Source: Candidatus Rokuibacteriota bacterium (GTDB lineage: Bacteria; Methylomirabilota; Methylomirabilia; Rokubacteriales; CSP1-6). Taken from it: a stretch of DNA of 44,584 nucleotides. Shown here piece after piece: positions 1,695-19,291 of the stretch. The stretch's first letter is position 1. The number at the start of each line of letters is the position of its first letter. The stretch is taken from NCBI GenBank assembly GCA_003221515.1, contig QHSI01000018.1, forward strand, positions 1 to 44,584, read 5' to 3'. The position numbers and the translations under genes are program-made. A model generated the notes under the pieces. That model did no database searches and was not told the origin of the DNA. It saw only the letters and a program-made list of their open reading frames with translations.

Positions 1695-1706
1695 CGGCGT
1701 CATCGA

Positions 1707-1738
1707 GGCCGGCCTCCCCGAGGGCGAGGAGGCCGGCC
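1707..1738. terminator. 11-bp perfect hairpin between convergent genes, likely bidirectional terminator
   Basis: GGCCGGCCTCC (1707-1717) and GGAGGCCGGCC (1728-1738) are perfectly complementary around a 10-base loop. The hairpin lies between the stop codons of the hydratase (1694, plus strand) and the PQQ dehydrogenase (1750, minus strand). There is no U-run on either side, so if it terminates transcription it is not a canonical intrinsic terminator. Confidence 0.55.
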
Positions 1739-1749
1739 AGTCCCTGAGA

Positions 1750-3349
1750 CTAGTCCCTGAGCGCGAACACCCAGATCACCCCGCCCTGAGGCACCTCGGT
1801 CTTCGTCCCGCGGAACGTGTCGAGCCGGGCCTGCATCCGCTGGGCGTCGATGCCCCAGCCCGATTGCACGGCGACGTACTGCACGCCGTCGACGGCGAAC
1901 GAGCTCGGCACGCCGGTGATCCCGGAGTTGGTCTTGAACTTCCACCCGCTGACCGGTCGTCATGTCCCAGGCCTGGAGCTCGCCGATGTGACTGGCGCCC
2001 TGGCGCCAGCTCATCGTGGTCTTCGGGCGGTCGATACCCAGGTAGAGCTTCCCGGGCTCGTAGGGATCGGGCTTCGGCTGGCCCACCAGCGTGGAGCAGA
2101 GATTCTCGTTGGCCGGGATGTAGAGGTACTGCGTTTTCGGGTTGTAGCCGGCCGGCGTCCAGTCCTTGCCGCCCCAGAGCCCCGGGCAGAAGGTCACCGT
2201 GGCGCCCGCGCGCGGCTTGCGCTCCTCGTTGTAGCTCGGCCGCCCGGTCACCGGGTCGAGCTTGGTGAAGACTTCCTGGGTGACGAATGGGCGCGCGTCC
2301 ACGAACTTGATGCTGTCGGCGCCGCGCTCCAGCCGCCAGAGATAGCCGTTGCGGCCCGGGTGCACCAGGCCCTTCACGGTGCGCCCGTCCTTGGGGAAGT
2401 CGATCAGGAGCGGCGTGGAGACCTCGTCCCAGTCCCAGGAGTCGTTCCAGTGATACTGGTGATGGGCGCGGATCTTGCCGGTGTCGACGTCCAGCGCGAG
2501 CACAGAGGAGGAGTACAGGTTGTCGCCCGGCCGCATATCGCCCATCCACGGCGCCGCATTGCCCGTCCCCCAGTAGCTCAGGTTGAGCTGGGGATCATAG
2601 TGCGCGGTGAGCCAGACCGACACGCCGCCCGTCTTCCAGGTCTCTCCGGGCCAGGTGTTGTGACCGGGCTCACCCGGCCCCGGGATCGTGTGCGTCTTCC
2701 ACACCGGCTTCCCGTCGCGCGCGTCGAAGGCGGCGACGTACCCGCGGATGCCGAGCTCGCCGCCGGAAGTGCCGATCATGACCTTGCCCTTGGCGACGAG
2801 CGGCGCCAGGGTGAAGTAGTAGCCGTTCTTGTAGTTGTCGACGGTCGTGTCCCACAGGACCGCGCCCGTCTTGGCGTCGAGCGCGATGAGATGCGCGTCG
2901 ACGGTCGCCAGGAAGAGTCGGTCCTCCCAGAGCGCCACGCCGCGGTTCGTGGGATGGAGCTGGAGCAGGTCCTCCGGCAGCTCCTTTTTGTAACGCCAGA
3001 GCAGGTCACCGGTCTTCGCGTTGAGCGCCAACACCTGCTGCTGCGGCGTCGTGACGAACATGACGCCGTTGTTGACGATCGGCGGCGACTGGTGACCTTC
3101 GTTCACGCCGGTGGAGAAGGTCCACACCGGGACGAGCTTCTTCACGTTGGCCGGCGTGACCTGGTCGAGCGGGCTGTATCCCCAGCCGTTGAGCGTACCG
3201 CGGTACATCAACCAGTTGTGCGGCTCCGGGTTGAGGAGCCGTTGCTCGGTCACCGTGCTGTAGCTCACCGTGCTCTGCGCGGTGAGCATCGCGGGTTCGA
3301 GCGCTACCAGGACCGCGAAACTCAGGATCGCTAGCCTTCTCACCGACAT
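1750..3349 (-). pseudogene. PQQ-dependent alcohol dehydrogenase (XoxF-like), frameshifted near its C-terminus
   Basis: An eight-bladed quinoprotein of the methanol/ethanol dehydrogenase family, about 533 residues, with a Sec signal peptide ending ...AMLTA-QS. Visible ligands are the Glu of GGELGIRG, the Asn of GTGNAAPW, the catalytic Asp306 and a second Asp308 (WDWDE). Asp at +2 from the catalytic Asp is the lanthanide-type signature. The vicinal Cys-Cys pair of classical methanol dehydrogenases is absent. The frame breaks at about 1941-1947, after ...AWDMTTGQRV. Shifting frame restores KFKTNSGITGVPSSFAVDG and the end GGVIWVFALRD before the TAG at 1750-1752. Loss of two bases from an ancestral V-W-K reading explains it best, since it restores the blade Trp. 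It follows the Rieske gene on the same strand, 64 bases apart. The frameshift may be real or a sequence error. Confidence 0.88.
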
Positions 3350-3413
3350 CGTCTTCGTCTCCCTCGTCTTGGCGTGTCGACTTCGCTGCGGCGCGCCACC
3401 GTCTCGATCCTTA

Positions 3414-4013
3414 TCAGCCTCCCGTCTCGAAGCCTGGCCGCCCGACGAAACTGCCCGCCACTGTCGGCGCGCCGTCGACGACCTTCAGCGGCAGGGCCGG
3501 CAACCGTCGGGGCGCCGGACCATTCAGGACCCGCGCGCTCTCCTTGAGATCGAACTCCGAGAAGTGGCACGGGCATTTGATCGTGCTCGACGCCGGCTGC
3601 CAATCCCAGACGTCACACCCGGTATGCGTGCACACGGCAGAATACGCGACGATACCGTCCGCGGCCCGCGCGCGCGTATCGCCGTCGAGCCGGCTCGGGT
3701 CGAGGCGGACCACCAGGATCTGGTTGAGCCGCGAATCGTCTCGGATCACCCTCGCGGTCGGGTCCATCGGATAGGCCGTGAGGGGCGGCCCGCCGGCGGG
3801 AAGGTCCGCGAGCGTGATGGGCTGCCCCTTGCGATCGCCGCCGGCGAATACGAGGCGATCGTTGGTCTGCGGTCGCGCCTTCCGCCGGTCGTCCTGGGCG
3901 CCGACGAGGTCCGCGACCGGCAACGTCAATCCGACAGCCAACGCCAGCTTCAGCACCGCACGGCGCGCGGGCTGCGGGATGGGCGCGCTGCGTCGTCGTG
4001 GCGTCTCGTTCAT
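3414..4013 (-). CDS. Exported Rieske [2Fe-2S] protein
   Basis: The 199-residue protein has an Arg-rich N-terminus and a hydrophobic stretch (ARRAVLKLALAVGLTLPVA) resembling a Tat signal or anchor. The C-terminal Rieske fold has all four cluster ligands: Cys128 and His130 in CTHTGC, and Cys147 and His150 in CPCH. Cys133 and Cys149 are placed to form the disulfide seen in high-potential Rieske proteins such as those of bc1 and arsenite oxidase. No molybdenum large subunit or cytochrome b lies next to it. Instead it precedes the frameshifted PQQ dehydrogenase by 64 bases on the same strand. I infer a role as periplasmic electron carrier or oxidase partner for that enzyme. The cluster assignment is firm; the partner is not. 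Confidence 0.88.
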   Translation of the reverse strand: MNETPRRRSAPIPQPARRAVLKLALAVGLTLPVADLVGAQDDRRKARPQTNDRLVFAGGDRKGQPITLADLPAGGPPLTAYPMDPTARVIRDDSRLNQILVVRLDPSRLDGDTRARAADGIVAYSAVCTHTGCDVWDWQPASSTIKCPCHFSEFDLKESARVLNGPAPRRLPALPLKVVDGAPTVAGSFVGRPGFETGG

Positions 4014-4031
4014 CGCGGGTTGCCCGCGGCA

Positions 4032-4060
4032 GAATTGTTCGGCAACCCACTCGATGTCAA
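4032..4060 (-). promoter_or_regulatory. Possible sigma70-type promoter for the Rieske-PQQ dehydrogenase pair
   Basis: On the minus strand a perfect TTGACA (4060-4055) lies upstream of the Rieske ATG at 4013. The hexamer 17 bases further on, CAATTC (4037-4032), is a poor -10 match. The position is right for the two-gene unit, but the weak -10 keeps this tentative. Confidence 0.3.
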
Positions 4061-4086
4061 GCCCGACGTTATTGCCCGACGTTATT
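4061..4086. repeat. 13-base perfect tandem duplication at the hydrolase stop codon
   Basis: GCCCGACGTTATT occurs twice back to back, at 4061-4073 and 4074-4086. The copy nearer the gene supplies the TAA stop (4082-4084) of the minus-strand exported hydrolase, and the second copy carries the same TAA just beyond it. It looks like a local replication slippage with no coding effect. Confidence 0.8.
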
Positions 4087-6091
4087 GCCTCGCCGGCCGG
4101 GGCGGCGGCATCCGCCGGTCCCAGCCGATCTCGGCCTGCGCCACGACGTGAGGCACGTCCTCGGCGAGGAGAAAGCCCGAGCGCGCGAGCGTCTCGGCCT
4201 CACGTTTGACGAGCTCCACGTACTGCGTTCGGTCGCCATAGCGCTCGATCACGCTCGCGCGCGGATCGCCACTGCGCTCGCGCTCCGCCCGGTCGCGCGC
4301 AAACGGGATGAAGGTTCCGTAGAAGTCCACGAGCTCACCCGGGTTGACCGCGCCGCGACGGAGGCTCCACGGAGTGTAGGTCGCCAGCGGGGCCAGGAGC
4401 TCCAGGCTCCGGACACCGCCCACCTCGTTGCCGTCGGCGTCTACTTGAGGCACGCGAACGGGGAACGCCCGGCCGAGCCGCGGCGGCTCCAGCGTGATGA
4501 TACCGTTCGCCCATCGCGGCCCGTAGTCGACCCGGTACGCCTCGTGCGCCGCGCGCGGCCATCCGACTCCGGGAATCGCTGGAGCTTGCACGCGATCCAC
4601 CGCGACGAGCGTGGCGTTGTCGAGGCGAGGGTGCCGGCTCGGGGGCGGCTCGCGTCCGTCCCGCACCCACTCGACCAGCCGCGTCAACAGCGACCTCAAC
4701 GTGGGATGAAAGTCGAGCGGGCTGCCTCGATACGTCGCGACGGGGTCGGTCCGCTCCGGGACGGCCGGCGTGCCCACCACGAAATGCTGGGCGCCGGCGA
4801 GATGGTAGATGCGCTCGCTGGCGAGCAGCTCCACGTCGGCGTCGGCGCCCGGTGTCGTGTGGATCAGCGAGGCGGCGCGGCCCCAGTACTCGTAGCCGGT
4901 GTTGGTGAAGAAGATCTTCGGCACGTGCGCCTCGTGGGCGAACAGCCCGTCGGTCATGCCCGTCTCCGGATCGCGTTGACTTCGGCCGCTGAACGGAAAG
5001 AGGTCCGTCGGATAGAAGAACGCGGAGAACCGATGCGCGTCGCGTGACGGCTGCGCGAACCGATGGTTGAAGCTCCCGCGCCCGGCGCCGGCCGTGTGCA
5101 CGAACAGGCCGTCGAACACCTGGCGTCGCGCCTCGTCGGTGTTGAAGCCCTGATAGACCAGATGCCGCAGGAACCGGCCGGTTTGCGAGATCCCGAGGCC
5201 GAGGGCCCAGCGGACCCCAAAGGGACTGGCCTTGTCGTACTTGGCGTACGAGATCATGTCCCGCACCGCGGCGAGACCCATGCCGACGACCACCGGGTCG
5301 CGCGCACGGTAGACGAGCTCGTAGATCTTGCCTGGCTCGAAGCCTCCGGTGCGCGCGATCCGCGTCTCGTCCACGAAGCGCCACTGGTCCCGCGGCACGA
5401 CGCGGCGAGCCGCCAGCCGGCCGTCGCGCTCGGTCAGCACGTTGTCGGCGTGCTCCGTGTCGGCGATGGGATACGGCCGGTGGTTGCGGTGGCCGAGCGG
5501 CAGGGTCGCGACGCGCTCGTCCACGGTCCAGTCGCAGCGCACCGGGCCCTCGATCGGGCGGGCGCCGTCGGTCGCGATCGGCACATCGAGGCGCATGGCG
5601 CCGTCGCGGAGCGGCACGTCGAACTGCCAGCCCACCCAGATGAGCGTCAGCCCGAGGCGTAACGGAAGCGCGTCGCCGAAGTCATCCGCGGTCGTCGGGT
5701 TCGCTCTCCACGCCGCGCGCGCGAAGTACGGCAACACGGCCTTGCCCCCACGGTTGGAGACCTCGAGAAGCGCGACCGCGCGGTCACGCGGCATCGCCTT
5801 CGGGCGCAGGACCATGAAGTTCGCGGATGCGGTGACGCGGCCGCTCGCGTCCTTCGGCGCGCGCGTGAGGTCCACGATGGCCGCGTTGGCGGTGTTGGCC
5901 GTGTCGAGCGCGAACTCGACCACACCGGCCAGCTTCTCGTAGCCGCCCGCCGTCCCGAAGGATCGCCCGCCGAGGACGTCCTCACGCGATTCGACGGTGA
6001 CGCGACTCACGACCGCCGCGGCGGGGCGTGCGACGACGAAAGACAGAAGCGCGAGGCCCAGCAGGGCGGGAGCCAGACGACGCGCCGTCAT
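4082..6091 (-). CDS. Exported alpha/beta hydrolase domain-containing protein (Abhydrolase_10-like)
   Basis: This 669-residue protein starts with a Sec signal peptide (MTARRLAPALLGLALLSFVVARPAAA). It matches the large hydrolase-like family often annotated 'alpha/beta hydrolase domain-containing protein'. The nucleophile elbow is visible as GISQTGRF with Ser302, followed by the RHLVYQGFN helix typical of this family. A C-terminal His candidate is in LAGAQHFVVGTP. Substrates of this family are poorly known. The open frame continues upstream to 6634, but the signal peptide and the divergent SoxC gene make the ATG at 6091 the sensible start. It is on the same strand as the Rieske and PQQ dehydrogenase genes, 68 bases upstream, so it could head that unit. 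Confidence 0.85.
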   Translation of the reverse strand: MTARRLAPALLGLALLSFVVARPAAAVVSRVTVESREDVLGGRSFGTAGGYEKLAGVVEFALDTANTANAAIVDLTRAPKDASGRVTASANFMVLRPKAMPRDRAVALLEVSNRGGKAVLPYFARAAWRANPTTADDFGDALPLRLGLTLIWVGWQFDVPLRDGAMRLDVPIATDGARPIEGPVRCDWTVDERVATLPLGHRNHRPYPIADTEHADNVLTERDGRLAARRVVPRDQWRFVDETRIARTGGFEPGKIYELVYRARDPVVVGMGLAAVRDMISYAKYDKASPFGVRWALGLGISQTGRFLRHLVYQGFNTDEARRQVFDGLFVHTAGAGRGSFNHRFAQPSRDAHRFSAFFYPTDLFPFSGRSQRDPETGMTDGLFAHEAHVPKIFFTNTGYEYWGRAASLIHTTPGADADVELLASERIYHLAGAQHFVVGTPAVPERTDPVATYRGSPLDFHPTLRSLLTRLVEWVRDGREPPPSRHPRLDNATLVAVDRVQAPAIPGVGWPRAAHEAYRVDYGPRWANGIITLEPPRLGRAFPVRVPQVDADGNEVGGVRSLELLAPLATYTPWSLRRGAVNPGELVDFYGTFIPFARDRAERERSGDPRASVIERYGDRTQYVELVKREAETLARSGFLLAEDVPHVVAQAEIGWDRRMPPPRPARQ

Positions 6092-6110
6092 GATCGTCGG
6101 AGTATACGTC

Positions 6111-6139
6111 TTGACCCTTGGGGACCGCACGGCTACCCT
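6111..6139 (+). promoter_or_regulatory. Candidate sigma70-type promoter for the soxC-soxD-like operon
   Basis: TTGACC (6111-6116) and TACCCT (6134-6139) are separated by 17 bases. They lie between the divergent hydrolase start and the soxC-like ATG at 6201, leaving a leader of about 55 bases. The -10 match is partial. Confidence 0.4.
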
Positions 6140-6200
6140 CGACGCATTCTCGGCGACCGCGCAGGACTTCGCGAGGACCGCTTCGACGGGGAGGACAGCG

Positions 6201-7499
6201 ATGCGTCCACGACGCCGTGACCGCCGTTTCGACGATGCCCGCGATGCTGCCGGGAACGGGGTGCTCGATCGCCGAGCGTTCTTGAGGGGCGGCGCCGGCG
6301 CCGTGGCGACCGGAGCGTTCATGGCGTACGCCCCGAGCGACGCGAGCGCGGCCTCGCCGCCGGAGACTCCGTCGGGAATGACGACACCCGGCGCTCCCTT
6401 GAGCCCGTACGGATCGCCGGCCACGTTCGAGCGTGAGGTGACGCGCACCCTCATCCGCTCCCAGCCCGGCACGACGGGCGCCGGCGCGTCGCGCACCCCG
6501 CTCGAGGCGCTGGAGGGCATGATCACGCCGAGTGGGCTGCACTTCGAGCGCCACCACAACGGTGTACCCACGATCGACCCGGCGCAGCACCAGCTCCTCA
6601 TCCATGGCATGGTCGCGCGCCCGCTGATCTTCACGGTGGCGTCGCTGCAGCGCTACCCGATGGAGTCGCGGATCCACTTCCTGGAGTGCTCGGGTAACAG
6701 CGCGCTGATGTATGGGGCGACGCCGCCCACGCTCACGTGCGGACAGACGCATGGCCTGGTGTCCTGCAGCGAGTGGACGGGCGTCCCGCTGCGGCTACTG
6801 CTGGAGGAGGCGGGCGTCGATCCGCGGGCCGACTGGGTCCTGGCCGAAGGCGCGGACGCGGCGGCGATGAGTCGCAGTGTGCCGATGGCGAAGGCCATGG
6901 ATGACGCGATGCTGGCGTTGTACCAGAACGGTGAGCGCCTGCGCCCGGAGAACGGCTATCCAGTGCGACTGTTTCTTCCGGGCTACGAAGGCAACATGAG
7001 CGTGAAATGGCTCAGGCGGATCAAGGTGACGGACACCCCGACGATGACGAAGGACGAGACGTCGAAGTACACCGATCTCCGGGCCGACGGCACGTCGCTG
7101 ATGTTCACCTATCCGATGGAGGTGAAATCGGTCATCACCCGCCCCGCGCCGGGACTGAAGATGACGGGGCCGGGTCTCTACGAGCTGTCCGGAATCGCGT
7201 GGTCCGGCCGGGGAAAGATCCGCAAGGTCGAAGTCTCGGCGGACGGCGGGCAGACGTGGGCGGAGGCGGTCCTTGCAGCGCCGGTGCTCGCGTACGCGCT
7301 GACCCGCTTCCGGATCGCCTGGAAGTGGAACGGCGCCCCGACGGTGCTCAAGAGTCGCGCGACGGATGACGCCGGCCGCGTCCAGCCGACGCGCGACGAG
7401 TTGATCGCCCAGCAGGGCGCCAACGTCGTCTACCACTACCATGCGATCCAGGCCTGGCGCGTCGAGTCGACTGGCGAGGTCAAGAATGTCTACGCGTGA
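6201..7499 (+). CDS. soxC: Sulfite dehydrogenase molybdopterin subunit, SoxC-like
   Basis: A 432-residue molybdopterin oxidoreductase of the sulfite oxidase family. It has a Tat signal (DRRAFLRGGAGAVATG), the SoxC-type opening GMITPSGLHFERHHNGVP, and the molybdenum-ligating Cys163 in FLECSGN. The C-terminal dimerisation domain contains the ATDDAGRVQP motif. In the Sox system SoxC works with the cytochrome SoxD in the periplasm, oxidising sulfane sulfur or sulfite. The ATG at 6201 has GGGAGGA about 6 bases upstream. It overlaps the cytochrome gene by 14 bases, which supports a SoxCD-type pair. No soxA, X, Y, Z or B is in the window, so this may be a stand-alone sulfite dehydrogenase and not part of a thiosulfate pathway. 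Confidence 0.9.
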   Translation: MRPRRRDRRFDDARDAAGNGVLDRRAFLRGGAGAVATGAFMAYAPSDASAASPPETPSGMTTPGAPLSPYGSPATFEREVTRTLIRSQPGTTGAGASRTPLEALEGMITPSGLHFERHHNGVPTIDPAQHQLLIHGMVARPLIFTVASLQRYPMESRIHFLECSGNSALMYGATPPTLTCGQTHGLVSCSEWTGVPLRLLLEEAGVDPRADWVLAEGADAAAMSRSVPMAKAMDDAMLALYQNGERLRPENGYPVRLFLPGYEGNMSVKWLRRIKVTDTPTMTKDETSKYTDLRADGTSLMFTYPMEVKSVITRPAPGLKMTGPGLYELSGIAWSGRGKIRKVEVSADGGQTWAEAVLAAPVLAYALTRFRIAWKWNGAPTVLKSRATDDAGRVQPTRDELIAQQGANVVYHYHAIQAWRVESTGEVKNVYA

Positions 7500-8031
7500 G
7501 GCGCTCGCGGTCGCCACGTGCGTCATCGTCTTCGGCGGCTGTGCGGGCACGGCCCCTCGCGAAACGCCGAACCTTGGGCGCGCGGCAACGCAAGCCGAGA
7601 TCGCGGGATGGGACATCAGCATCGCTCCCGACGGCCGGGGATTGCCGCGGGGCGCCGGGACGCCGGCCGACGGCGCACTGGTCTATGCCCAGAAGTGCCA
7701 GGTTTGCCATGGGGACAAGGGCGTGGGCGGGCCAAACGACCGGCTCGTCGGAGGGCAGGGGACCCTGGCGAGCAAGACGCCGGTGCGCACGATCGGCAGC
7801 TACTGGCCCTACGCGACGACCGTGTTCGACTACGTCCGGCGATCGATGCCGTTCTTCCAGCCGCACTCGCTGACGGACAGCGAGGTCTACGCGGTCACCG
7901 CCTATCTGCTCAGCCTGAACGGAATCATCGGGGAGCAGGACGTGATGAATGCCGAGACGCTTCCCAAAGTGAAGATGCCCAACCGCGACAACTTCATTCT
8001 GGTCCAGCCCTGGAAGCCCCGGGTGCAGTGA
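7486..8031 (+). CDS. soxD: SoxD-like class I c-type cytochrome
   Basis: The 181-residue exported protein has an N-terminal hydrophobic stretch ending FGGCAGTAP, which could be a lipoprotein or Sec signal. It carries one haem site, Cys71-Gln-Val-Cys74-His75, and a likely axial Met in RRSMPFFQPHSL. The spacing and the conserved YWPYATTVFDYVRRSMPF segment are characteristic of SoxD-type cytochromes. It is shorter than diheme SoxD and corresponds to one haem domain. The ATG at 7486 lies inside the end of soxC, so translation is probably coupled. It should accept electrons from the SoxC molybdenum centre. The convergent thioredoxin-like gene overlaps its last 38 bases. Confidence 0.87.
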   Translation: MSTREALAVATCVIVFGGCAGTAPRETPNLGRAATQAEIAGWDISIAPDGRGLPRGAGTPADGALVYAQKCQVCHGDKGVGGPNDRLVGGQGTLASKTPVRTIGSYWPYATTVFDYVRRSMPFFQPHSLTDSEVYAVTAYLLSLNGIIGEQDVMNAETLPKVKMPNRDNFILVQPWKPRVQ

Positions 8032-8980
8032 CGGGCTTCAGGGCCCCCTCGAGCTCGCGCCGCGTGGTCAATCCCTCGAACCTCGCGCGGACGATCCCTT
8101 TGCCGTCCACGACGAAGATCCACGGCTCGGAGCGGAGGTTCCACTCCTCGACCGTGGGCGAGAACTTCTGGAGGGACTCGCTCTCCCAGATCTCCTCGTG
8201 GATGAAGACGACGCGATCCCCATAGGCCGGGATCAGCGTCCGCACGACGTCGACGACCGGGCCGCACACCCGGCTGGTGCAGTACCTCGGCGTCGCGAAC
8301 ACGATCACCTGCGGCTTGCCCTGGGCGATCGCGTCCGCGATCCGCGTCCGATGTAACCGCGGATCCGGCGGCTCGCTGGAATCGATCTGCTTCAGCTCGC
8401 TGACGTCGCTGGCGATGCGGTTCCGACTGCGCGGGGCCGGCGTCCCGACCGTCGGCGCGGGCGACGTCGCGAGGGCGCTGACGCTCAAGCGCGCCGACTC
8501 GAGGGCGCCGCTGCCCACCTGCGCGAGGACCTCGAGGCCCCACGTGCCGGAGTGCTCGAAGGCCACCTGCGCCACGTAGATGCCCTGCACGTCGGTCGCG
8601 TCGCCGTGGACGTGACGCGCGCCGTCCGGATGGATGTGGATCCGCTTGCCCCGTTCGATGACCTCCAGCCGATGGTAGCGCGCCGGCGTTTCGGCGATGA
8701 GACGCGCGTCCTCGCCTTCGATCGCATAGACACGCACCGCGACCCTGGCGTCGGCGAGCAGCTTTCCGTCCTTCAGGAGGCCGAAGGCCAGTCGATTCTG
8801 GCCGACGAGCAGCTCGGACGTCGTGAGCAGGACTTGAAGGCGGTCTGTTCCCGTCGGGGCGAGCTGCGCCGCCGGCCGGTCGCGCTGGGCGAAGCAGACG
8901 GCCAGGAGTCCCAGCGTGACCGCGCCGGAGATGAGGGACGGACGCAGGCGCGCCCGTCCCTGCCGTTCGCTATTCCACAA
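7994..8980 (-). CDS. Exported thioredoxin-fold protein with N-terminal FixH/YtkA-like region
   Basis: The 328-residue product has an N-terminal membrane/signal segment (SLISGAVTLGLLAVCFA). A beta-rich region of about residues 45-170 resembles YtkA/FixH-type domains, with a His-rich patch HIHPDGARHVHGD that could bind metal. The C-terminal thioredoxin fold has a CTSRVC motif (Cys234, Cys239). Four residues between the cysteines is not the usual CxxC of thioredoxins and resembles peroxiredoxin-like or SCO-like proteins. The TTG at 8980 is the first in-frame start and overlaps the end of the PQQ-cupredoxin gene by 11 bases; an internal start is possible. Co-transcription suggests a role in copper or thiol handling for that enzyme, which is inference. 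Confidence 0.7.
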   Translation of the reverse strand: MWNSERQGRARLRPSLISGAVTLGLLAVCFAQRDRPAAQLAPTGTDRLQVLLTTSELLVGQNRLAFGLLKDGKLLADARVAVRVYAIEGEDARLIAETPARYHRLEVIERGKRIHIHPDGARHVHGDATDVQGIYVAQVAFEHSGTWGLEVLAQVGSGALESARLSVSALATSPAPTVGTPAPRSRNRIASDVSELKQIDSSEPPDPRLHRTRIADAIAQGKPQVIVFATPRYCTSRVCGPVVDVVRTLIPAYGDRVVFIHEEIWESESLQKFSPTVEEWNLRSEPWIFVVDGKGIVRARFEGLTTRRELEGALKPVTAPGASRAGPE

Positions 8981-11036
8981 TGACCTGGCCGTACTGCCAG
9001 GGGTGGGGCAGACAGATGTAGTAGTAGTTGCCGGGCTGCGCGAAGGTGACGGCCTTCGACTGGCCTTTGACCAGCACGCCCGTGTCCCACTTGCCCCGGT
9101 CCATCGACGTCGCCGAGTGCGGCAGGTCGCCGACGTTGGTGAAGGTCACGGTGGTCCCGGCCTTGATCCGCACCCGGGCCGGCGCGAAGCTGTACTCCAC
9201 GTTGTTCGCGCCGATCCTGACCGCGTCGGCTCCGGCGGCGATCGGTCCGGTGGGCCCCGCGACGGTTTGCGGCGGTGGCGGCGGCCACAGCGGACCCAGC
9301 TGGCCCTTCAACGAGAACGCCCACACCGCGTCGCCGTACGCGCTGCCCGTGAGCTGGTTGCCACCCGTCGCGATCGCGACGAACTGCTCGCCGTCCACTT
9401 CGTAGATCACGGGCGGCGCATCGGCGCCGAAACCGGTCTGGAACCGCCACAGCTCCTTGCCCGACTTGGCGTCGATCGCGAGGAAGTTGCCGTCGGGATC
9501 GCCGCGGAACACGAGGCCGCCCGCCGTGACCGACGAGCCACCGCCGCCGCCGATGCGATACGGGGTCTTGTTCTGCCAGGCGATCTTGTTCGTCTTGCCG
9601 TCGATCGCCGTGAACGTGCCGCTCATCGGTGAGTTGATGGGCGCCGACTGGCTTCCGCCGGTGTAGCGCAGCCCGAGCACGTACTTGTCGCCGAAGCGCG
9701 TGAACGCGCTCGTGCGCACCGTGCCGGGCACGTAGAAGTAGCCCGTGTCGGGGCTGTACGGCATCGGCGACCAGTTCGTGCCGCCGATCCCCGACGGCTG
9801 CATGAGCACCGGGGTCTCCCAGAAGGTGTCGAAGATGCAGCCGGCTTTCTCATAGCCCGTCAGCAGCTCGGCACACTGCGGCACGGTCGCGTCGCCGCGG
9901 GGGATCGGCTGGGTCTTGGCCGTCTTCTGCCGCGGGTCCTGAGGTACCGGCTTCTCGTCGATTCCGATCAGGGGCTTGCCGTCCGTCCGATCGAGGATGT
10001 ACACCCAGCCCGTGCGCCCGGCCTCGGCGATGCCCTTGCGGGGCTTGCCGTCGATGACGGTGTCGAAGAGGACCACCGGGCTGGCCGCGTCGTAGTCCCA
10101 GATGTCGTGGTGCACTTGCTGGAAATGCCAGACGTACTCGCCGGTCTTGGCCTTCAGGGCCATCATCGAGGCGCAATAGAGGTTGTCGCCCTCGCGCATC
10201 GAGCCGTCGTAGTCCGGTCCGCAGTTGCCGGTGACGAAGTAGACGAGCCCGAGGTCGGGATCGAGGGCCGGCGTGTTCCAGATCGTCGCGCCGCCGCGCA
10301 TCGAGTGATCTGTGCCGGGCGGCCAGGTCTCGCTGCCGCGCTCGCCGGGCGCCGGGAGCGTGTACGAGCGCCACAGGATTGCGCCGGACTTGGCGTCGAG
10401 CGCGGTCAGCCGGCCCCGCACGCCGAACTCGCCGCCGGAGATGCCGCTGTAGATGATTCCGTCGTAGTAGAGAGGCGCGCTCGTGATGGTGTAGCCGTTC
10501 TCCCACTTCTCGAGGGGCGTCTTCCACTTCACCTCGCCGGTCTTCATGTCCAGGGCCACCATGTTGGCGTCGAGCTGGCCGGAGAAGAGCAGACCCTCGC
10601 CCATGGCGAGCCCCCGGTTCACCCAGCCGCAGCACACGGTCGAGATCTTCTGGTCGATGCCGGACCAGTATTCCCAGATGATCGCGCCCGTTTTCGCGTT
10701 GAGCGCGAAGACGTCGTCGTTGCCCGTGACGACGTACATGATCCCGTCCTTGACAAGCGGCGACCCCTCGAAGGAATACTTGCCGCCGGCGCCGGAGCCC
10801 TTGAGACGGGTCATCCAGGCTCCCTTGAGCTGGGCGACGTTGGTGGTGTCGATCTGCTTCAGCGTGGAGTACCGCTGGTTGGTCAGGTTGCCGCCGTTCG
10901 TGACCCAGTCCTTCCCGGCCGGGCCCCGGATCAGACGATCCATGTCCGGGTCGGCGGCCAGGGCTGGCTGGACCATCAGGAACAAGAAGCTCAGCGTCGT
11001 CACCACCGCGATCACTTGCTGCCCCAGACGTCGCAT
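8970..11036 (-). CDS. PQQ-dependent alcohol dehydrogenase fused to a C-terminal cupredoxin
   Basis: A 688-residue exported quinoprotein with signal peptide ending VQPALA-AD. Residues about 30-570 form the PQQ propeller, with the vicinal disulfide Cys135-Cys136, the Glu of GGEFGVRG, the Asn of TGNCGPDYDG, catalytic Asp314 and the lanthanide-type Asp316 (WDYD). After a Pro-rich linker (PLWPPPPPQ), residues about 595-688 are a cupredoxin of the amicyanin/plastocyanin type. Its copper ligands are His640, Cys675 and His678, but the axial Met position holds Gln681 (C-LP-H-PW-Q). Known two-domain PQQ alcohol dehydrogenases carry cytochrome c here, so copper probably replaces haem as internal electron acceptor. 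The start at 11036 has AGGGAG upstream. It is followed by the overlapping thioredoxin-like gene. Confidence 0.9.
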   Translation of the reverse strand: MRRLGQQVIAVVTTLSFLFLMVQPALAADPDMDRLIRGPAGKDWVTNGGNLTNQRYSTLKQIDTTNVAQLKGAWMTRLKGSGAGGKYSFEGSPLVKDGIMYVVTGNDDVFALNAKTGAIIWEYWSGIDQKISTVCCGWVNRGLAMGEGLLFSGQLDANMVALDMKTGEVKWKTPLEKWENGYTITSAPLYYDGIIYSGISGGEFGVRGRLTALDAKSGAILWRSYTLPAPGERGSETWPPGTDHSMRGGATIWNTPALDPDLGLVYFVTGNCGPDYDGSMREGDNLYCASMMALKAKTGEYVWHFQQVHHDIWDYDAASPVVLFDTVIDGKPRKGIAEAGRTGWVYILDRTDGKPLIGIDEKPVPQDPRQKTAKTQPIPRGDATVPQCAELLTGYEKAGCIFDTFWETPVLMQPSGIGGTNWSPMPYSPDTGYFYVPGTVRTSAFTRFGDKYVLGLRYTGGSQSAPINSPMSGTFTAIDGKTNKIAWQNKTPYRIGGGGGSSVTAGGLVFRGDPDGNFLAIDAKSGKELWRFQTGFGADAPPVIYEVDGEQFVAIATGGNQLTGSAYGDAVWAFSLKGQLGPLWPPPPPQTVAGPTGPIAAGADAVRIGANNVEYSFAPARVRIKAGTTVTFTNVGDLPHSATSMDRGKWDTGVLVKGQSKAVTFAQPGNYYYICLPHPWQYGQVIVE

Positions 11037-11148
11037 GTCGTTCTCCCTTACTTCCGGCGGCCGTGAGCGCGCTTCTTCCCGTAGCGGGACGCCCCCGCTT
11101 GCCGTCGCGCCGCCTCGCGCGATCGGACTCCAGTCGGGGCGCGGCCGA

Positions 11149-11177
11149 GAAATACCGCCGCCTATCATCCATGTCAA
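11149..11177 (-). promoter_or_regulatory. Candidate sigma70-type promoter for the PQQ-cupredoxin gene
   Basis: On the minus strand a perfect TTGACA (11177-11172) is followed after 17 bases by TATTTC (11154-11149). This is about 110 bases before the ATG at 11036, in the gap shared with the divergent YVTN propeller gene. Confidence 0.45.
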
Positions 11178-11223
11178 GGAACTCTCTTGACTATGGAATG
11201 CCCCTGGAGGAGTCTCGTCGGCG

Positions 11224-12183
11224 ATGCGCCGATCAGCTCTCGCCGGCGTGGTCCTGCTCGTCCTCGCGTTCGGCTCCACTCGGGCCGGCGCCGAGCTACG
11301 CGTCTTCGTCACCAACGAAAAGTCCGATGACGTGACGGTCATCGATGCGGCGACCCGAGCCGTCGTCGGAACGATCAAAGTGGGCAAGCGCCCGCGGGGC
11401 GTCGCGGTGAGCCCCGACGGCCGGAAGGTCTACGTGAGCAACAGCAACTCGGACAGCTTGAGCGTCATCGACGCGAAGACGCTCGAGGTGCTGAAGACGG
11501 TTCCGGCGGGCATCGACCCGGAGGGACTGACCCTGAACCGGGCGGGCACCGCGCTCTACGTCGTCAACGAGAACGAGCTCTCGGTGACGGTCCTGGATGT
11601 CGCGTCACTGACGGTCCGCAAGAAGATCGCCGTCGGCAAGGAGCCCGAGACGGCGGTGGCCTCGCCGGACGGGCGGTGGATCGCCGTCTCCAACGAGACC
11701 TCCGACGACATCCACGTCATCGCCGTGGCGAGCGACACGGTCGTCAAGCAGATTCCCGCGCCCAAAAACCCGCGCGGCATGCGCTTCTCGGCCGACTCGC
11801 GCCAGCTCTTCGTCGCCAGCGAGCAGGCCCACGTCGTCTCCGTGATCGACATGGCGGACATGAAGGTCGTCAAGTCGGCGCCGACCGGCGGCGGGCGCCC
11901 CGTCGACGTCGTGCTGACGCCGGATGGCTCGCGCCTGTACGTGTCCCACGGTCAGACCGGAGACGTCCGGGTGCTGGACAGCGCCTCGCTCAAGGTGCTC
12001 GCGGTGATCCCGACCGGTCCCCGCACCTGGTGGACCGCGCTCAGCCCGGACGCGCGATTCCTCTACGCGACCGTCGGGCGCGCCAACGAGCTGGCCGTGA
12101 TCGACACGAGCTCGAACACGGTGGTCGCACGCGTTCCCTGCGGCACGCTGCCCTGGGGCGTGGCGATCGCTGACACGCCCTGA
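11224..12183 (+). CDS. PQQ-associated YVTN beta-propeller protein
   Basis: The 319-residue exported protein has a signal peptide (LVLAFGSTRAGA) followed by about seven repeats with the pattern VxVIDxxTxxVxxTIxVGxxPxGxxxSPDGxxxYV. The first blade, VFVTNEKSDDVTVID, closely resembles the family 'PQQ-dependent catabolism-associated beta-propeller protein', which is usually encoded near quinoprotein dehydrogenases. Its role is unknown; a periplasmic scaffold or ligand-binding function is assumed. GGAGGAG at 11206-11212 is 11 bases before the ATG. It is divergent from the PQQ-cupredoxin gene, consistent with the family association. Confidence 0.88.
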   Translation: MRRSALAGVVLLVLAFGSTRAGAELRVFVTNEKSDDVTVIDAATRAVVGTIKVGKRPRGVAVSPDGRKVYVSNSNSDSLSVIDAKTLEVLKTVPAGIDPEGLTLNRAGTALYVVNENELSVTVLDVASLTVRKKIAVGKEPETAVASPDGRWIAVSNETSDDIHVIAVASDTVVKQIPAPKNPRGMRFSADSRQLFVASEQAHVVSVIDMADMKVVKSAPTGGGRPVDVVLTPDGSRLYVSHGQTGDVRVLDSASLKVLAVIPTGPRTWWTALSPDARFLYATVGRANELAVIDTSSNTVVARVPCGTLPWGVAIADTP

Positions 12184-12199
12184 GCCGGTGCTGCCGGTG

Positions 12200-12712
12200 T
12201 CAGACGATGAGGCGGAGCCAGCGCGGACCGCTTCTCGCGAAGATCTGGTCGACTCCCCACGTTCGTCCCGCGCGCGCGAAGAGAAAGATGATCATCGAGG
12301 TCACCAGAAGGACGTGGAAGCCCTGCTGTCCGAAGCTCATCCACTGGCTGGCCAGACCGTAGTTCAGGCACAGAAACAGCCCGACCAGCGCGGTAAGGCC
12401 GGTCACCAGTCCGAGGATCAGCCCGAGGCCGACCGCCGCCTCGCCGAAGGTCTGAAGCGTCGCGAACACCTTGCTGTTCGGCAGGACCGTCCCCTCGAGG
12501 AAGTTCTTGTACCATTCGACGGGGTTCCCGGCGGCGAACTCGGCGATCCGCTTGGGGTGGAAGGCGACGAAGCGCGGGGAGACCGCCGGGTACGGGATCA
12601 GGTCCCCGAGGAACGCGAGGGTGAACTTGGTCCACACCGCTTTCACGAACCACACACCGACGACGACCCGCAGCAGAACGACCCAGCGGTCCGCGTGGAC
12701 CATGGGCGGCAT
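12200..12712 (-). CDS. DoxX-like integral membrane protein
   Basis: About 170 residues with four predicted membrane helices: WVVLLRVVVGVWFVKAVW near the N-terminus, two in the FGEAAVGLGLILGLVTGL to LFLCLNYGLA region, and FHVLLVTSMIIFLFA near the C-terminus. The helix 1 pattern and the FGE motif preceding helix 2 are typical of the DoxX family, whose founding member is the quinone-binding small subunit of thiosulfate:quinone oxidoreductase. Such a protein could pass electrons from periplasmic oxidation to the quinone pool, which is inference. The start is uncertain: ATG 12712 or 12703, or TTG 12739. It converges with the YVTN gene, with only 16 bases between stop codons. Confidence 0.75.
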   Translation of the reverse strand: MPPMVHADRWVVLLRVVVGVWFVKAVWTKFTLAFLGDLIPYPAVSPRFVAFHPKRIAEFAAGNPVEWYKNFLEGTVLPNSKVFATLQTFGEAAVGLGLILGLVTGLTALVGLFLCLNYGLASQWMSFGQQGFHVLLVTSMIIFLFARAGRTWGVDQIFARSGPRWLRLIV

Positions 12713-12781
12713 GCTAAGGGACGTCGCGAGCGCGGTCAATTGTTTCTAGGCGGGCCTCGTCCCCTGCGACCCGCGGAGGCG

Positions 12782-12811
12782 TTGACAGTACCGACGACGG
12801 CCCTCTAATAT
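12782..12811 (+). promoter_or_regulatory. Strong sigma70-type promoter for the third PQQ dehydrogenase operon
   Basis: A perfect TTGACA (12782-12787) is followed after 18 bases by TAATAT (12806-12811), the best promoter match in the window. It lies about 125 bases before the dehydrogenase start, leaving a leader of roughly 120 bases that could hold regulatory structure. Confidence 0.68.
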
Positions 12812-12937
12812 CGGGCCACTTCAACGACGAAGGGGGTGAGCCCGGCCAAGCTCTGCCTTCGCGGAAACGGGATCAGCGGCGTACTCGCGTTTCGCTCCTG
12901 CGTTCAACAGATCCCACGGGAGATCGGGAGAATGGTC

Positions 12938-14668
12938 ATGAGGACAGCATGCACGCTCGCCCTGGCCGCGCTGATCGCGTGGTCGTCACTGCTGACGCCG
13001 GCGCCAGCGGCGGCCCAATGGACCGACGTGACGGACCAGCGATTGGCCGACCCGGACAAGGAGCCGCAGAACTGGCTCACCTACTACCGGAGCTACGGCG
13101 GCTGGCGCTACAGCCCGCTCACCCAGATCAATGTACAGAACGTCAAGCGCCTGTCGCCGCGGTGGATGCTCTCGTTGGGCGAGGCCGGCAACCAGCAGGC
13201 GACGCCGCTCGTGAACAACGGCGTGATGATCGTGACGTCGCCGTTCGGGCAAGAGCTCAATCGCGTCTACGCGGTGGACGCCACGACCGGCAAGGTCCTC
13301 TGGAAGCACGAGACGAAGCTTCCTGAAGACCTCACCGGCCTGGTCAAGATCCTGTCGATGAACCGCGGCGCCGCGCTCTACGGGGACCGCGTCTACTTCG
13401 GCACCATGGACGCGCGCGTGGTCGCGCTCAACGGCAAGACCGGCTCCGTGGTCTGGCAGAAGACGCTGGCCGACTACAAGGACGGGTACTTCTTCACGAT
13501 GGCGCCGCTCGCCGCCGACGGCAAGATCATCGTCGGCTCCAGCGGCCCCGGCGAGATGGGCAGTCGTGGATTCATCGCCGCCCTCGACGCCGACAGCGGT
13601 CGTGAGCTGTGGCGAACCTACACCATCCCGTCCGCCGGCGAGCCCGGTGTCGATACGTGGCCGGGCGAAACGTGGAAACACGGCGGCGGCGCCGTGTGGC
13701 TCACCGGCACGTACGATCCGGGGTCGAAGCTGGCCTTCTTCGGTGTCGGCAACCCGGCGCCGTGGGACGCCAACCTCCGGAAGGGCAAGAACCTCTACAC
13801 CAACTCGGTGCTCGCCCTCGACGTCAAGAGCGGCGCCATCAAGTGGTTCCGGCAGTACCACCCGAACGACACCTGGGACCTGGACACGCCGCACGAGCAT
13901 CTGCTCATCACCATCACCCGCGGCGGCCAGCCGCAGCAGGTGACGTTCCAGCCGCAGAAGACCGGCTTCTACTTCACGCTGGATCGGACCAGCGGCAAGT
14001 TCGTCTCGGCCAAGAAGTTCGCCCGCAACATCACGGTGTGGTCGGACGTGAACGCCGAGACCGGCGAGCTCATGGAGAACCCAGGCATGCGGCCGGAGGC
14101 CGGGGCGCCGCCGATGAACATCTGCCCGGCGATCTTCGGTGCGCGCAACTGGGCGCACGCCTCCTTCAATCCCAAGACCGGGCTCGTGTTCCTGCCGGGC
14201 ATGGAGCTCTGCAACAAGTACTCGATCGCGAAGGAGATCGAGTACAAGCGCGGCGCCCTCTACATCGGCGCCGACTTCACGGCATACGCGCCCGAGGAGA
14301 ACGCGGGCGTCGTGCGGGCCATCGACCCGGCCAACCAGAAGACGACGTGGGAATGGTGGACCAAGGCCCCACTCCAGGCTGGGGGCACAGTGGCCACCGG
14401 CGGCGGCCTCGTCTTCGTCGGGACTCAGGACGGTCGGCTGGTTGCCCTCAACCAGGCCAACGGCAAGCAGGCCTGGGAATTCAACCTGGGCGCGCCGGTG
14501 ACCGGGCCGCCGATCAGCTTCGCCGTCGGTGCCAAGCAGTACATCGCCGTCGTCACCGGCGGCGGCAAGGTCACCGGCGATCTGCTCGTCGGGGACGACC
14601 CGAAGCTGCAATACCTCAAGTCGATCCCGGTCGGAGGGACGCTGACGGTCTTCGGACTCTTCGAGTGA
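12938..14668 (+). CDS. PQQ-dependent alcohol dehydrogenase (XoxF-like)
   Basis: A 576-residue exported quinoprotein with signal peptide ending TPAPAAA-QW and the usual propeller blades. Visible ligands are the Glu in GPGEMGSRG, the Asn in GVGNPAPW, catalytic Asp314 and a second Asp316 (WDLD), the lanthanide-type pattern. Like the frameshifted paralogue, and unlike the cupredoxin fusion, it has no vicinal Cys pair. The two also share NWLxYxRxxxGWxYSPLxQ and PGETWKxGG, so they are closer to each other. The ATG at 12938 was chosen because GGGA lies about 8 bases before it and it directly precedes the signal peptide; ATG 12932 and GTG 12836 are less likely. The binding protein-cytochrome fusion follows with a TGATG overlap, as in xoxF-J-G clusters. 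Confidence 0.92.
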   Translation: MRTACTLALAALIAWSSLLTPAPAAAQWTDVTDQRLADPDKEPQNWLTYYRSYGGWRYSPLTQINVQNVKRLSPRWMLSLGEAGNQQATPLVNNGVMIVTSPFGQELNRVYAVDATTGKVLWKHETKLPEDLTGLVKILSMNRGAALYGDRVYFGTMDARVVALNGKTGSVVWQKTLADYKDGYFFTMAPLAADGKIIVGSSGPGEMGSRGFIAALDADSGRELWRTYTIPSAGEPGVDTWPGETWKHGGGAVWLTGTYDPGSKLAFFGVGNPAPWDANLRKGKNLYTNSVLALDVKSGAIKWFRQYHPNDTWDLDTPHEHLLITITRGGQPQQVTFQPQKTGFYFTLDRTSGKFVSAKKFARNITVWSDVNAETGELMENPGMRPEAGAPPMNICPAIFGARNWAHASFNPKTGLVFLPGMELCNKYSIAKEIEYKRGALYIGADFTAYAPEENAGVVRAIDPANQKTTWEWWTKAPLQAGGTVATGGGLVFVGTQDGRLVALNQANGKQAWEFNLGAPVTGPPISFAVGAKQYIAVVTGGGKVTGDLLVGDDPKLQYLKSIPVGGTLTVFGLFE

Positions 14669-15729
14669 TGTGGCTCCGCGGCCTCGCCCTCGCCGCGCTC
14701 GCATGGGCGGCGGGGGCCGAGGCCGCCCAACACGAAGGGCTGGAGTCGATCCGGCAGCGCGGCTACCTGCGAATCTGCGCCGACCCCTCGAACCTTCCGT
14801 ACTCGAGCAACGACCCGGCCGCACCCGGCTTCGAGGTCGAGCTGGCCCGGCTCATCGCCGCCGAGCTCGGCGTGACGGCACGCCTGGAATGGCGCGCGAC
14901 GTACGTGCGCGCGATCAAGCCTCTGCGCGACGGCGCCTGCGAGCTGTTCATGGGGCTCCCCGTGGACCGCCGCTTCCGCGAGGGCAACCCCTGGATCGCG
15001 GTCAGCCGACCGTACTACACGATGACGCACGGGCTGGTGACGCGCGCCGACGCGGGCTCGCTCACGATCGCCGACCTCAAGGGCCAGCGCGTCGCCGTCG
15101 AGCTGGCGAGCATCGCCGAGTTCTACGTCGCGTACCGCGATGTGGTGCGCGGGCTCTACAAGACGCAGGAGCAGGCGTTTCAGGCCGCGGCTCGCGACGA
15201 GGCCGTCGCCGCGTTTCTCTGGTTTCCGCTGGCGGCGTGGCTCGCCCGCGGGCGCGCCGACCTGAAGGTCGTCGCCGTCTCGGACGAGGGCCTGGCGTTT
15301 CCGATCGGGGCCGGGGTACGCAAGCGGGATCCGGGCCTCGCCGAGGCGATCGACGCGGCCGTCGAGCGAGTGCTCGCCTCTGGCCAAGCGCAGGAGGTCC
15401 TCGCGCGCTACGGCATCGAATCGGCCAGGCGGACGTCGCGCGAGCCATCGTGCTCACCGTTCGTGCTGGTGCAGGAGAAGGACCCCCGCGAGACGGGCCG
15501 CGCGCTGTTCTCCACCGCGTGCTCGCGCTGTCACGGTGCCGAGGGCGTGGGGGGCGGCACGGGCGGCGCGCTGCCGAAGCTGCGCAATTACGACGGTGGC
15601 TACGACAAGTTCTATCGCCTGGTATGGGAAGGTCGGAAGAACACGGCGATGGCCGCGTTCAAGGGCATCCTGAGCCCCGACGAGGTCCGCGCGCTCTACG
15701 AGTATCTGACCTCGCTTCCCAGGCAGTGA
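14668..15729 (+). CDS. MoxJ/XoxJ-like binding protein fused to cytochrome c
   Basis: 353 residues with a signal peptide (LALAALAWAAGAEA). Residues about 25-255 are a periplasmic binding-protein domain of the quinoprotein dehydrogenase-associated (MoxJ/XoxJ) type: GYLRICADPSNLPYSS, then PGFEVELARLIAAELG and GACELFMGLPVDRRF. Residues about 265-353 are a class I cytochrome c with haem site Cys285-Ser-Arg-Cys288-His289 and a likely axial Met in RKNTAMAAF. In methanol dehydrogenase clusters XoxJ and the cytochrome XoxG are separate proteins; here they are one chain. It would both assist the preceding dehydrogenase and accept its electrons, which is inference. Start overlaps the dehydrogenase stop (TGATG), and its stop overlaps the next start (GTGA). 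Confidence 0.88.
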   Translation: MWLRGLALAALAWAAGAEAAQHEGLESIRQRGYLRICADPSNLPYSSNDPAAPGFEVELARLIAAELGVTARLEWRATYVRAIKPLRDGACELFMGLPVDRRFREGNPWIAVSRPYYTMTHGLVTRADAGSLTIADLKGQRVAVELASIAEFYVAYRDVVRGLYKTQEQAFQAAARDEAVAAFLWFPLAAWLARGRADLKVVAVSDEGLAFPIGAGVRKRDPGLAEAIDAAVERVLASGQAQEVLARYGIESARRTSREPSCSPFVLVQEKDPRETGRALFSTACSRCHGAEGVGGGTGGALPKLRNYDGGYDKFYRLVWEGRKNTAMAAFKGILSPDEVRALYEYLTSLPRQ

Positions 15730-16817
15730 CTCCGGCGCCGCTCGTCGCCGCGCTGCTCGGCACGCTGGGCGCGGTGGGAGCCGCGGCCGCCGAGCCGCCG
15801 CCGATCGTCGTTCCCTCGGGCTTCCGCGTCGAGATCGTGGCGGACGGCCTCGGCGCGCCACGCATGCTCGCGCAAGATGCGTCCGGAACGCTGCTGGTGT
15901 CGATCCCGAGCGAGGGACGTGTCGTCGCTCTGCCCGCGAGCCCGCGACCTCGAACGCCCGTCACGGTCGCCGCGGGGCTACAGCTTCCTCACGGGCTCAT
16001 CGTGCGTGACGGACACCTCTGGGTGGGCGAGACGGGGCGCGTGCTGCGGTTCCGCTACGACGTCGCCACCCACCGCGCGACCGAGCCGGTCGTGATCGTC
16101 CCCGATCTGCCGCCGGGCGCGCACCACTGGACCCGGTCGATCGCCTTCGGCCCCGACGGCCGGCTGTTCGTGGCGATCGGCTCCTCGTGCGACATCTGCC
16201 GCGAAGGGGATCGCCGCCGCGCCACGATCGTCAGCTACGCACCGGACGGATCGAACGAGCGCCTCGTCGCGAGCGGGCTGCGCAATCCCGTCGGGCTCGC
16301 GTTCGACCCGAAGACCGGCGCGTTGTGGACGACAGTCAACGAGCGCGATTGGCGCGACGGTCGCGCCCCGCCGGACTTCTTCACGCTGGTGCGCCCCGGC
16401 GCCAACTACGGCTGGCCTGACTGCTACGTCCAGGGCGGCGCGGTCACGCCCGATCCCCAGTTTCGCGGCGCGCGCGACTGTCGTGACATCACGCTGCCTT
16501 CCGTCGAGCTTGCTCCGCACGCGGCGCCGCTCGGAATCGCCTTCTATAGCGGGACGCAGTTTCCGGCGGCGTATCGCGGAAACCTCTTCGTCGCGCTCCA
16601 TGGCTCCCGTGCTGAGCTTCCGCCGGCCGGCTACAGGATCGTGCGGGTCGCTTTCCCGGCCGGCGGACGACCGCGCGTCGAGGACTTCGCGACCGATTGG
16701 CGCGCGGGTGGTCGCGTGTGGGGCCGCCCGGTCGACGTGCTCGTGGGGCGCGACGGCGCGCTCTACGTCTCGGACGATCATGGCGGGCGTGTGCTCCGCA
16801 TCACCTTCGTGCCATGA
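15726..16817 (+). CDS. PQQ-dependent sugar (sorbosone/glucose-type) dehydrogenase-like propeller
   Basis: A 363-residue exported six-bladed propeller of the soluble glucose/sorbosone dehydrogenase fold. The signal peptide ends VGAAAA-EP. Family features include VPSGFRVEIVADGLGAPR at the N-terminus, HHWTRSIAFGPDGRLFVAIG with the likely catalytic His, GLRNPVGLAFDP, and GANYGWPDCY. A Cys pair in SSCDIC is notable. The fold uses PQQ in sugar dehydrogenases, but many members have other or unknown substrates. The GTG at 15726 overlaps the previous stop as GTGA, so translation is coupled to the XoxJ-cytochrome fusion. It is probably the last gene of the operon starting at 12938. Confidence 0.85.
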   Translation: MTPAPLVAALLGTLGAVGAAAAEPPPIVVPSGFRVEIVADGLGAPRMLAQDASGTLLVSIPSEGRVVALPASPRPRTPVTVAAGLQLPHGLIVRDGHLWVGETGRVLRFRYDVATHRATEPVVIVPDLPPGAHHWTRSIAFGPDGRLFVAIGSSCDICREGDRRRATIVSYAPDGSNERLVASGLRNPVGLAFDPKTGALWTTVNERDWRDGRAPPDFFTLVRPGANYGWPDCYVQGGAVTPDPQFRGARDCRDITLPSVELAPHAAPLGIAFYSGTQFPAAYRGNLFVALHGSRAELPPAGYRIVRVAFPAGGRPRVEDFATDWRAGGRVWGRPVDVLVGRDGALYVSDDHGGRVLRITFVP

Positions 16818-16883: not shown

Positions 16884-17189
16884 ATGGGTACTGACGGCGA
16901 ACTGCGCCTGCACATGTCGGAAGTCCGGAAATGGCTGACGGGGGAGTACGGACCGCTTCCGTCCGGAGTCACCCTGCTGATCAAGCCGTCGGACTTTGAC
17001 CACGCCGTGCTCAGGGAGCTCTCGGAGAGCGACTTGATCATTCGCGCGCGCGCGCTCCTGCGTGACGCCCAACGAGTCGTCGACCAGCTCGCGCTCGGCC
17101 AGCCGAACGAGACCCGCTTCATCAACAACCTCACCTTCCATGCCTCGGCTCTCGCGGATGCGCTCCGCGGCCTGCAGAAGGGCGGCTGA
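16884..17189 (+). CDS. Hypothetical protein, 101 residues
   Basis: I do not recognise this protein. It is soluble and mostly helical, with the sequence WLTGEYGPLPSGVTLLIKPS near the N-terminus and a helical C-terminal half, RARALLRDAQRVVDQLALG. There are no cysteines, signal peptide or membrane segments. It starts 66 bases after the sorbosone-type gene on the same strand; the ATG at 16884 has a weak TAGGG about 5 bases upstream. Codon use resembles its neighbours, so I regard it as a real but uncharacterised gene. Confidence 0.6.
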   Translation: MGTDGELRLHMSEVRKWLTGEYGPLPSGVTLLIKPSDFDHAVLRELSESDLIIRARALLRDAQRVVDQLALGQPNETRFINNLTFHASALADALRGLQKGG

Positions 17190-18432: not shown

Positions 18433-18435
18433 GCC

Positions 18436-19281: not shown

Positions 19282-19291
19282 GGAGGCAACG

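Follow-up and report, generated by a model that had tools for sequence, protein, structure and literature searches.

How do three sister dehydrogenases dependent on pyrroloquinoline quinone (PQQ), encoded within a single gene island, dispose of their electrons? The electron acceptors known for PQQ dehydrogenases are cytochromes, a quinone or a copper protein distinct from the enzyme. The window in which this question arises is a stretch of 44,584 nucleotides from Candidatus Rokuibacteriota (contig QHSI01000018.1 of assembly GCA_003221515.1), here contig C30 of genome G000, a metagenome-assembled genome (MAG) of soil Rokubacteria that comprises 5.1 Mb in 191 contigs and is an estimated 95% complete. 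An earlier note on this DNA had reported three PQQ dehydrogenases together with a Rieske protein, a fused cupredoxin, a fused cytochrome c, a SoxD-type cytochrome, a DoxX-like membrane protein and a propeller, and had suggested that the carriers are alternative electron outlets for related substrates. We called 12 genes between positions 1700 and 16817 from open reading frames, named them with NCBIfam and Pfam, and recovered all of these neighbors as well as the three dehydrogenases: DH1 (1700–3349, minus strand), DH2 (8970–11036, minus strand) and DH3 (12932–14668, plus strand).

Our preferred explanation, which we hold with slightly more confidence than doubt, is that the island serves alcohol oxidation in the periplasm of Rokubacteria and that its three dehydrogenases, paralogs with metal sites of the lanthanide type, would each feed a carrier of their own. 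DH1 would pass electrons to the Rieske [2Fe-2S] protein encoded directly upstream, DH2 to a type 1 copper cupredoxin in the same chain, and DH3 to a XoxJ-like/cytochrome c fusion protein encoded directly downstream; from these the electrons would reach a soluble carrier or a terminal oxidase. We rate as strongest among the new results that each of the sister enzymes is paired, according to its type, with a carrier of a different chemistry, the Rieske operon in particular. This pairing supports the suggestion of alternative outlets, except for the SoxD-type cytochrome, which goes with SoxC (see below).

Pairing of the Dehydrogenases with Candidate Carriers

Among 95 genomes of the phylum we found 27 DH1-type genes (at least 59% identity to intact DH1, the next best match being 47%), 23 of which have a Rieske homolog directly upstream, on the same strand and 30–201 bp away. 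A C-terminal Rieske fragment is situated directly upstream of DH1 in G050:C344 and G048:C150, in the latter reaching the contig end, and the DH1-type genes of G050:C526 and G045:C62 start at a contig end. Counted from the other side there are 29 Rieske loci: the 23 paired ones, two that precede a contig-cut DH1 start (G050:C169 and G045:C403) and four without DH1. Among the 166 distinct PQQ enzymes whose metal sites are described below, 23 of the 24 DH1-type proteins have a same-strand Rieske neighbor vs. none of the 142 others (0/142); that set was enriched for Rieske loci by the way it was fetched, a bias from which the phylum count of 27 genes is free.

The Rieske protein of the window (3414–4013, minus strand) is of the Thermus type, with a twin-arginine N-terminus recognized by eye. 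It matched the Thermus Rieske protein with an E-value of 7.4e-38, 43% identity and a TM-score of 0.86 on the target (model pLDDT 77), and both cluster motifs are invariant in all five aligned sequences. The fold with both cluster motifs is that of the Rieske subunits of bc1 and b6f complexes. There is no cytochrome b gene in the island, and the cytochrome b N-domain PF13631 had no match in G000, in a search that was confined to this form of cytochrome b and that found the control in 8 of 14 known genomes. As no such domain was found in the genome, the Rieske protein is unlikely to serve as a subunit of a classic bc1 complex of the cell, and G000 may be without such a complex. Rieske domains occur at 16 places in G000. 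In the open literature, surveyed by title and the start of the abstract, we found no Rieske- or cupredoxin-coupled PQQ dehydrogenase; an earlier description is possible, subscription papers having been mostly outside the survey.

The DH1 of the window is not intact. Compared with three relatives it is missing 128 nt, and the frame shifts near residue 469 (near position 1940), whereas DH1 is intact in relatives. The damage may be a real deletion or an assembly fault; with DH1 broken as assembled, the Rieske branch in this particular genome may be dead or mis-assembled.

In DH2 the putative carrier is part of the enzyme itself. Residues about 606–688 match the cupredoxin family PF00127 (37.9 bits, cut-off 21.2) and, by eye, have the His-Cys-His ligands of a type 1 copper site with an axial Gln. 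Each of the 12 full-length relatives of DH2 with an identity of at least 77% spans the cupredoxin; partial matches outside these 12 were seen in G007:C144, G008:C319, G050 (two) and G004 (one). The nearest named relatives of DH2 belong to Candidatus Rokuibacteriota MAGs, at 94, 93, 89, and 83% identity. The wider DH2 sample was drawn from the best 80 matches of a single scan that had DH2 as its seed. Of the 91 distinct HHDxW-motif proteins, 53 have a CxxCH heme motif in the C-terminal slot, 23 match a cupredoxin there and 15 show neither. Two actinobacterial proteins, L125 and L126, were counted as cupredoxin by kinship for the tree, which gives 25 with cupredoxin and 13 with neither, and the cupredoxin label requires three changes on the tree. 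A Pfam check of the slot returned cytochrome c in all three proteins tested for it and a copper protein in L058, with L120 a weak match.

The window protein and its nearest relatives have Gln as the axial residue of the cupredoxin, most others having Met; an axial Gln instead of Met would lower the potential. Sphingobium and actinobacterial relatives of DH2 (L119, L120, L123, L124, L127, and L128) retain a cupredoxin-like tail that has lost the Cys/His copper ligands, and in these same proteins Thr replaces the Glu metal ligand. A thioredoxin-like protein with CxSRVC and His-rich motifs (7994–8980, minus strand) adjoins DH2 in 9 of 11 copies in the family; it is perhaps involved in copper handling, which is a guess (its structure model, pLDDT 50, was not used). 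In the second DH2 copies of G005 and G006 (L051, 5566–7788; L052, 8141–10291) the catalytic Asp has become Asn (WNYD), the second Asp is retained, and the thioredoxin-like neighbor is missing.

The candidate carrier of DH3 is the protein JG (14668–15729, plus strand). The earlier note had described it as a fused cytochrome c; the cytochrome is there (residues about 275–350), preceded by a XoxJ-like solute-binding domain (residues 34–250). DH3-type genes (at least 47% identity) number 19 in the 95 genomes, and a J-G fusion is encoded next downstream in 16 of them. As to the exceptions, G038:C4 has J only, 1166 bp away, the gene in G006:C123 ends with the contig, and at G050:C344 no J-G partner was found. 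By structure, the J domain matched XoxJ (6onp) best, while the heme domain matched CcoP and quinohemoprotein heme domains, XoxG not being among the matches listed. Elsewhere in the genome of the window, a second gene of the DH3 type (L139, G000:C98, 3033–5781) also has a J-G partner; this gene was flagged as frameshifted.

Metal Sites and Family Membership

With PedH as a guide, we read the ligand positions in the 166 distinct PQQ enzymes that 221 sequences, the window plus 220 loci, had yielded; there had been 237 candidates before removal of repeats, and matches spanning fewer than 380 residues were dropped. At 34–43% identity to the lanthanide enzymes PedH and XoxF, DH1, DH2 and DH3 have all four metal ligands of these enzymes (Glu, Asn, Asp, and the Asp at +2) as well as the Gly that precedes the Glu. 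The Asp pairs are D306/D308 in DH1 and D314/D316 in DH2, as previously numbered, and D316/D318 in DH3, which had been given as D314/D316, the numbering that applies with a start two codons later. Position +2 from the catalytic Asp is occupied by Asp in PedH and in three XoxF structures, but in the Ca enzymes examined by Ala (MxaF) or Thr (the type II alcohol dehydrogenases 1kv9 and 1yiq), so that the DxD does align with the lanthanide Asp, as the earlier note had proposed. In a subset of 106 of these proteins, the four ligands and the Gly before Glu occur in all 24 DH1-type enzymes; among the 24 proteins whose best score was with DH3, the Glu is present in 21 and the Asn in 22, those that deviate being of marine or actinobacterial origin and distant from DH3 in the tree. 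Based on this alignment, lanthanide use by all three enzymes is likely.

Are these enzymes then XoxF? A quick maximum-likelihood tree of 113 proteins, for which 102 DH2-type proteins were first thinned by a hand-made list, placed XoxF and MxaF, along with two genes from relatives, in one clade with support of 100, and DH1 (24 rows), DH3 (17 rows) and DH2 in other clades. PedH formed a single long branch that did not join DH1–3 and was among the long branches flagged by the tree program; we consider the tree sufficient to place the enzymes outside XoxF, but not to fix deep relations. The residues agree. The XoxF Thr three residues past the Asn ligand (Thr259; PMC11845868) is missing, its position being occupied by Pro in PedH and nearly all DH1–3 types, and the vicinal Cys pair is present in DH2 and absent from DH1 and DH3. 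By tree and residues alike, membership in XoxF is rejected. Against the methanol/ethanol dehydrogenase family TIGR03075 (cut-off 480.05), DH3 scored 539.7 and the intact DH1 of a relative 579.7, with the broken DH1 (478.3) and DH2 (455.3) just under.

The best match in the Protein Data Bank for each of the three was the lanthanide ethanol dehydrogenase PedH/ExaF (6zcv and 6zcw), which has the four ligands and the Gly in common with them. It differs in its identity of 39–43%, in standing on a long branch that did not join DH1–3 in the present tree, in the Cys pair that DH1 and DH3 lack and in the copper domain that is found on DH2. XoxF methanol dehydrogenase with XoxG and XoxJ (6dam, 4mae) shares the Asp at +2 and, with DH3, a XoxJ-like partner, but has a clade and a Thr of its own, and the heme domain of JG matches those of CcoP and quinohemoproteins. 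In Methylacidiphilum cGJ, a cytochrome is likewise fused to a XoxJ-type protein (PMC8498564); JG has its J domain first and the cytochrome second. Type II quinohemoprotein alcohol dehydrogenases (1kv9, 1yiq) resemble DH2 in having a C-terminal electron-acceptor domain on a PQQ propeller, although they have heme where DH2 has copper and Thr in place of the second Asp. For the same lineage, XoxF-type PQQ methanol dehydrogenases that have the lanthanide Asp, form a branch of their own and were detected in soil proteomes have been described from grassland-soil Rokubacteria that lack formaldehyde pathways (PMC5103831, PMC6784897); the portions of these accounts consulted mention no Rieske, cupredoxin or J-G pairing, and the enzymes described may include DH1–3.

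Supply of PQQ

The island lacks PQQ biosynthesis genes, as had been noted, and in the whole genome of the window neither pqqC nor pqqE gave a match over the cut-off. A pqqC-like gene on G000:C10 scored 72 bits against a cut-off of 240 and was rejected as evidence of true PQQ synthesis; low-scoring paralogs of this kind are also found in genomes with a true pqqC. Across the phylum, pqqC (TIGR02111, over cut-off) was detected in 28 of 95 genomes; the nine in the genus of the window had none, and 23 of 48 belonging to other genera of its family had it. When the count is restricted to genomes that carry a DH1-type gene, pqqC is present in 0 of 6 within the genus and in 13 of 14 elsewhere, G044 being the exception (Fisher p ~0.0002, a value weakened by the fact that the absence throughout the genus is probably a single ancestral loss). 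Genomes of sister genera carry pqqC on the same contig as the island (G025:C99, G034:C229, G048:C332, G050:C344, and G024:C58), and the G048 island (L056) has a true pqqC at 17008–17697 of its contig. The genus of the window probably depends on PQQ from outside.

Alternative Explanations

Several observations weigh against our preferred explanation. Four Rieske genes have no adjoining DH1 (G011:C55, G044:C18, G042:C57, and G052:C97, near contig end), and that of G044:C18 comes after genes for a propeller, a cytochrome c and a protein of the 3-keto-disaccharide hydrolase type (L187, 5–3007); G050:C344 retains a Rieske fragment only; the deletion removes a working DH1 from this genome as assembled; and all Rieske pairs come from one bacterial family, so that the linkage may in part reflect shared descent. 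The unpaired Rieske genes, along with the variable gene order of the island among relatives, would fit an ordinary expansion of PQQ alcohol dehydrogenases in which co-located general carriers are interchangeable and neighborhood reflects shared regulation only. We think this rather unlikely given the restriction of the Rieske neighbor to DH1-type enzymes, even in a set enriched for Rieske loci, and the covalent attachment of the cupredoxin in DH2. That the Rieske protein is a respiratory-complex subunit merely riding along with DH1 is suggested by its best structural and sequence relatives, which are Rieske proteins of bc complexes; the absence of a PF13631 match from G000 and the presence in several genomes of two or three Rieske copies, most beside a DH1, make this improbable. 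A bolder version of the preferred explanation is possible, though we give it less than an even chance: the three carriers (a Rieske protein recruited from a bc-type complex, a covalent blue copper domain and a XoxJ-cytochrome fusion) would be private to their enzymes and could let one periplasm oxidize alcohols over a range of potentials or as the supply of iron, copper or heme varies, while one genus has given up PQQ synthesis and lives on the PQQ of its neighbors. If the pairing is real, the coupling of a PQQ dehydrogenase to a Rieske protein would be new as a route of electron transfer, and a conserved Rieske partner along with copper or heme in one slot would widen the known connections between PQQ enzymes and respiration. 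It would also provide gene-level markers for sorting soil lanthanide-type enzymes beyond XoxF and PedH, and suggests a whole genus relying on shared PQQ.

The metal sites could instead hold calcium, the DxD having been inherited without lanthanide use. Three glucose dehydrogenase-like relatives, at 388–399 bits to TIGR03074 (cut-off 832.65), keep the DxD without the Glu and Asn, and glucose dehydrogenase-like enzymes use Ca or Mg. The DxD by itself is for this reason not diagnostic, and is weak evidence of lanthanide use, a further point on the opposing side. PedH itself appears able to hold Ca (PMC11845868). The lanthanide-type site previously claimed from the Asp pair is better supported by the alignment of all four ligands and the Gly, a match to both structurally proven lanthanide groups that makes calcium sites unlikely in our estimation. 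Finally, the PQQ enzymes of the genus could be decaying or unused after the loss of PQQ synthesis, as the lack of pqqC in all nine genomes and the disruption flags in G000 (DH1 and the second DH3-type gene), G002 (DH2) and G008 (Rieske) might indicate. However, most copies are intact. Flags were raised for 5 of 27 inside the genus and 3 of 57 outside, which does not show faster decay in the PQQ-lacking genus; at least two of the stop flags are probably in upstream sequence of the query, and assembly error is possible. In addition, the window enzymes scored 307–374 bits against Acido-empty-quinoprotein group A, far under its cut-off of 650, and PQQ uptake is common among bacteria; we regard decay as quite unlikely.

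Other Genes of the Island

Relatives retain most island genes in variable order, as the earlier note's expectation of a conserved neighborhood would have it, and some have extra PQQ dehydrogenases with J or J-G partners; the G048 island (L056) has five PQQ dehydrogenases in ~15 kb. The SoxD-like cytochrome c (7486–8031, plus strand), rightly reported before, overlaps soxC (6201–7499, plus strand), a molybdenum sulfite dehydrogenase gene that the earlier note had omitted and that scored 584.1 bits to TIGR04555, over the cut-off of 420. SoxD is probably the partner of SoxC, the two being a separate molybdenum enzyme, and its proposed role as an outlet for the PQQ enzymes is unsupported. Many relatives also have soxC and soxD next to DH2, as does a MAG from groundwater that is named Proteobacteria (L057, 8129–9902).

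Between the Rieske gene and soxC is an Abhydrolase_10 protein (4082–6091, minus strand; Pfam). A beta-propeller (11224–12183, plus strand) is near the "PQQ-dependent catabolism-associated" family, with 252.8 bits to PQQ_ABC_repeats, below its cut-off of 287.3; a YncE-type propeller near XoxF3 has been published (PMC10875860). The beta-propeller of the island is followed by a DoxD/DoxX-type membrane protein (12200–12739, minus strand), and the island closes, after JG, with a glucose/sorbosone dehydrogenase-type (GSDH) propeller (15726–16817, plus strand). Beyond the island, the plus strand at 17443–20614 appears, by eye, to encode two ABC permeases and a binding protein of the sugar type.

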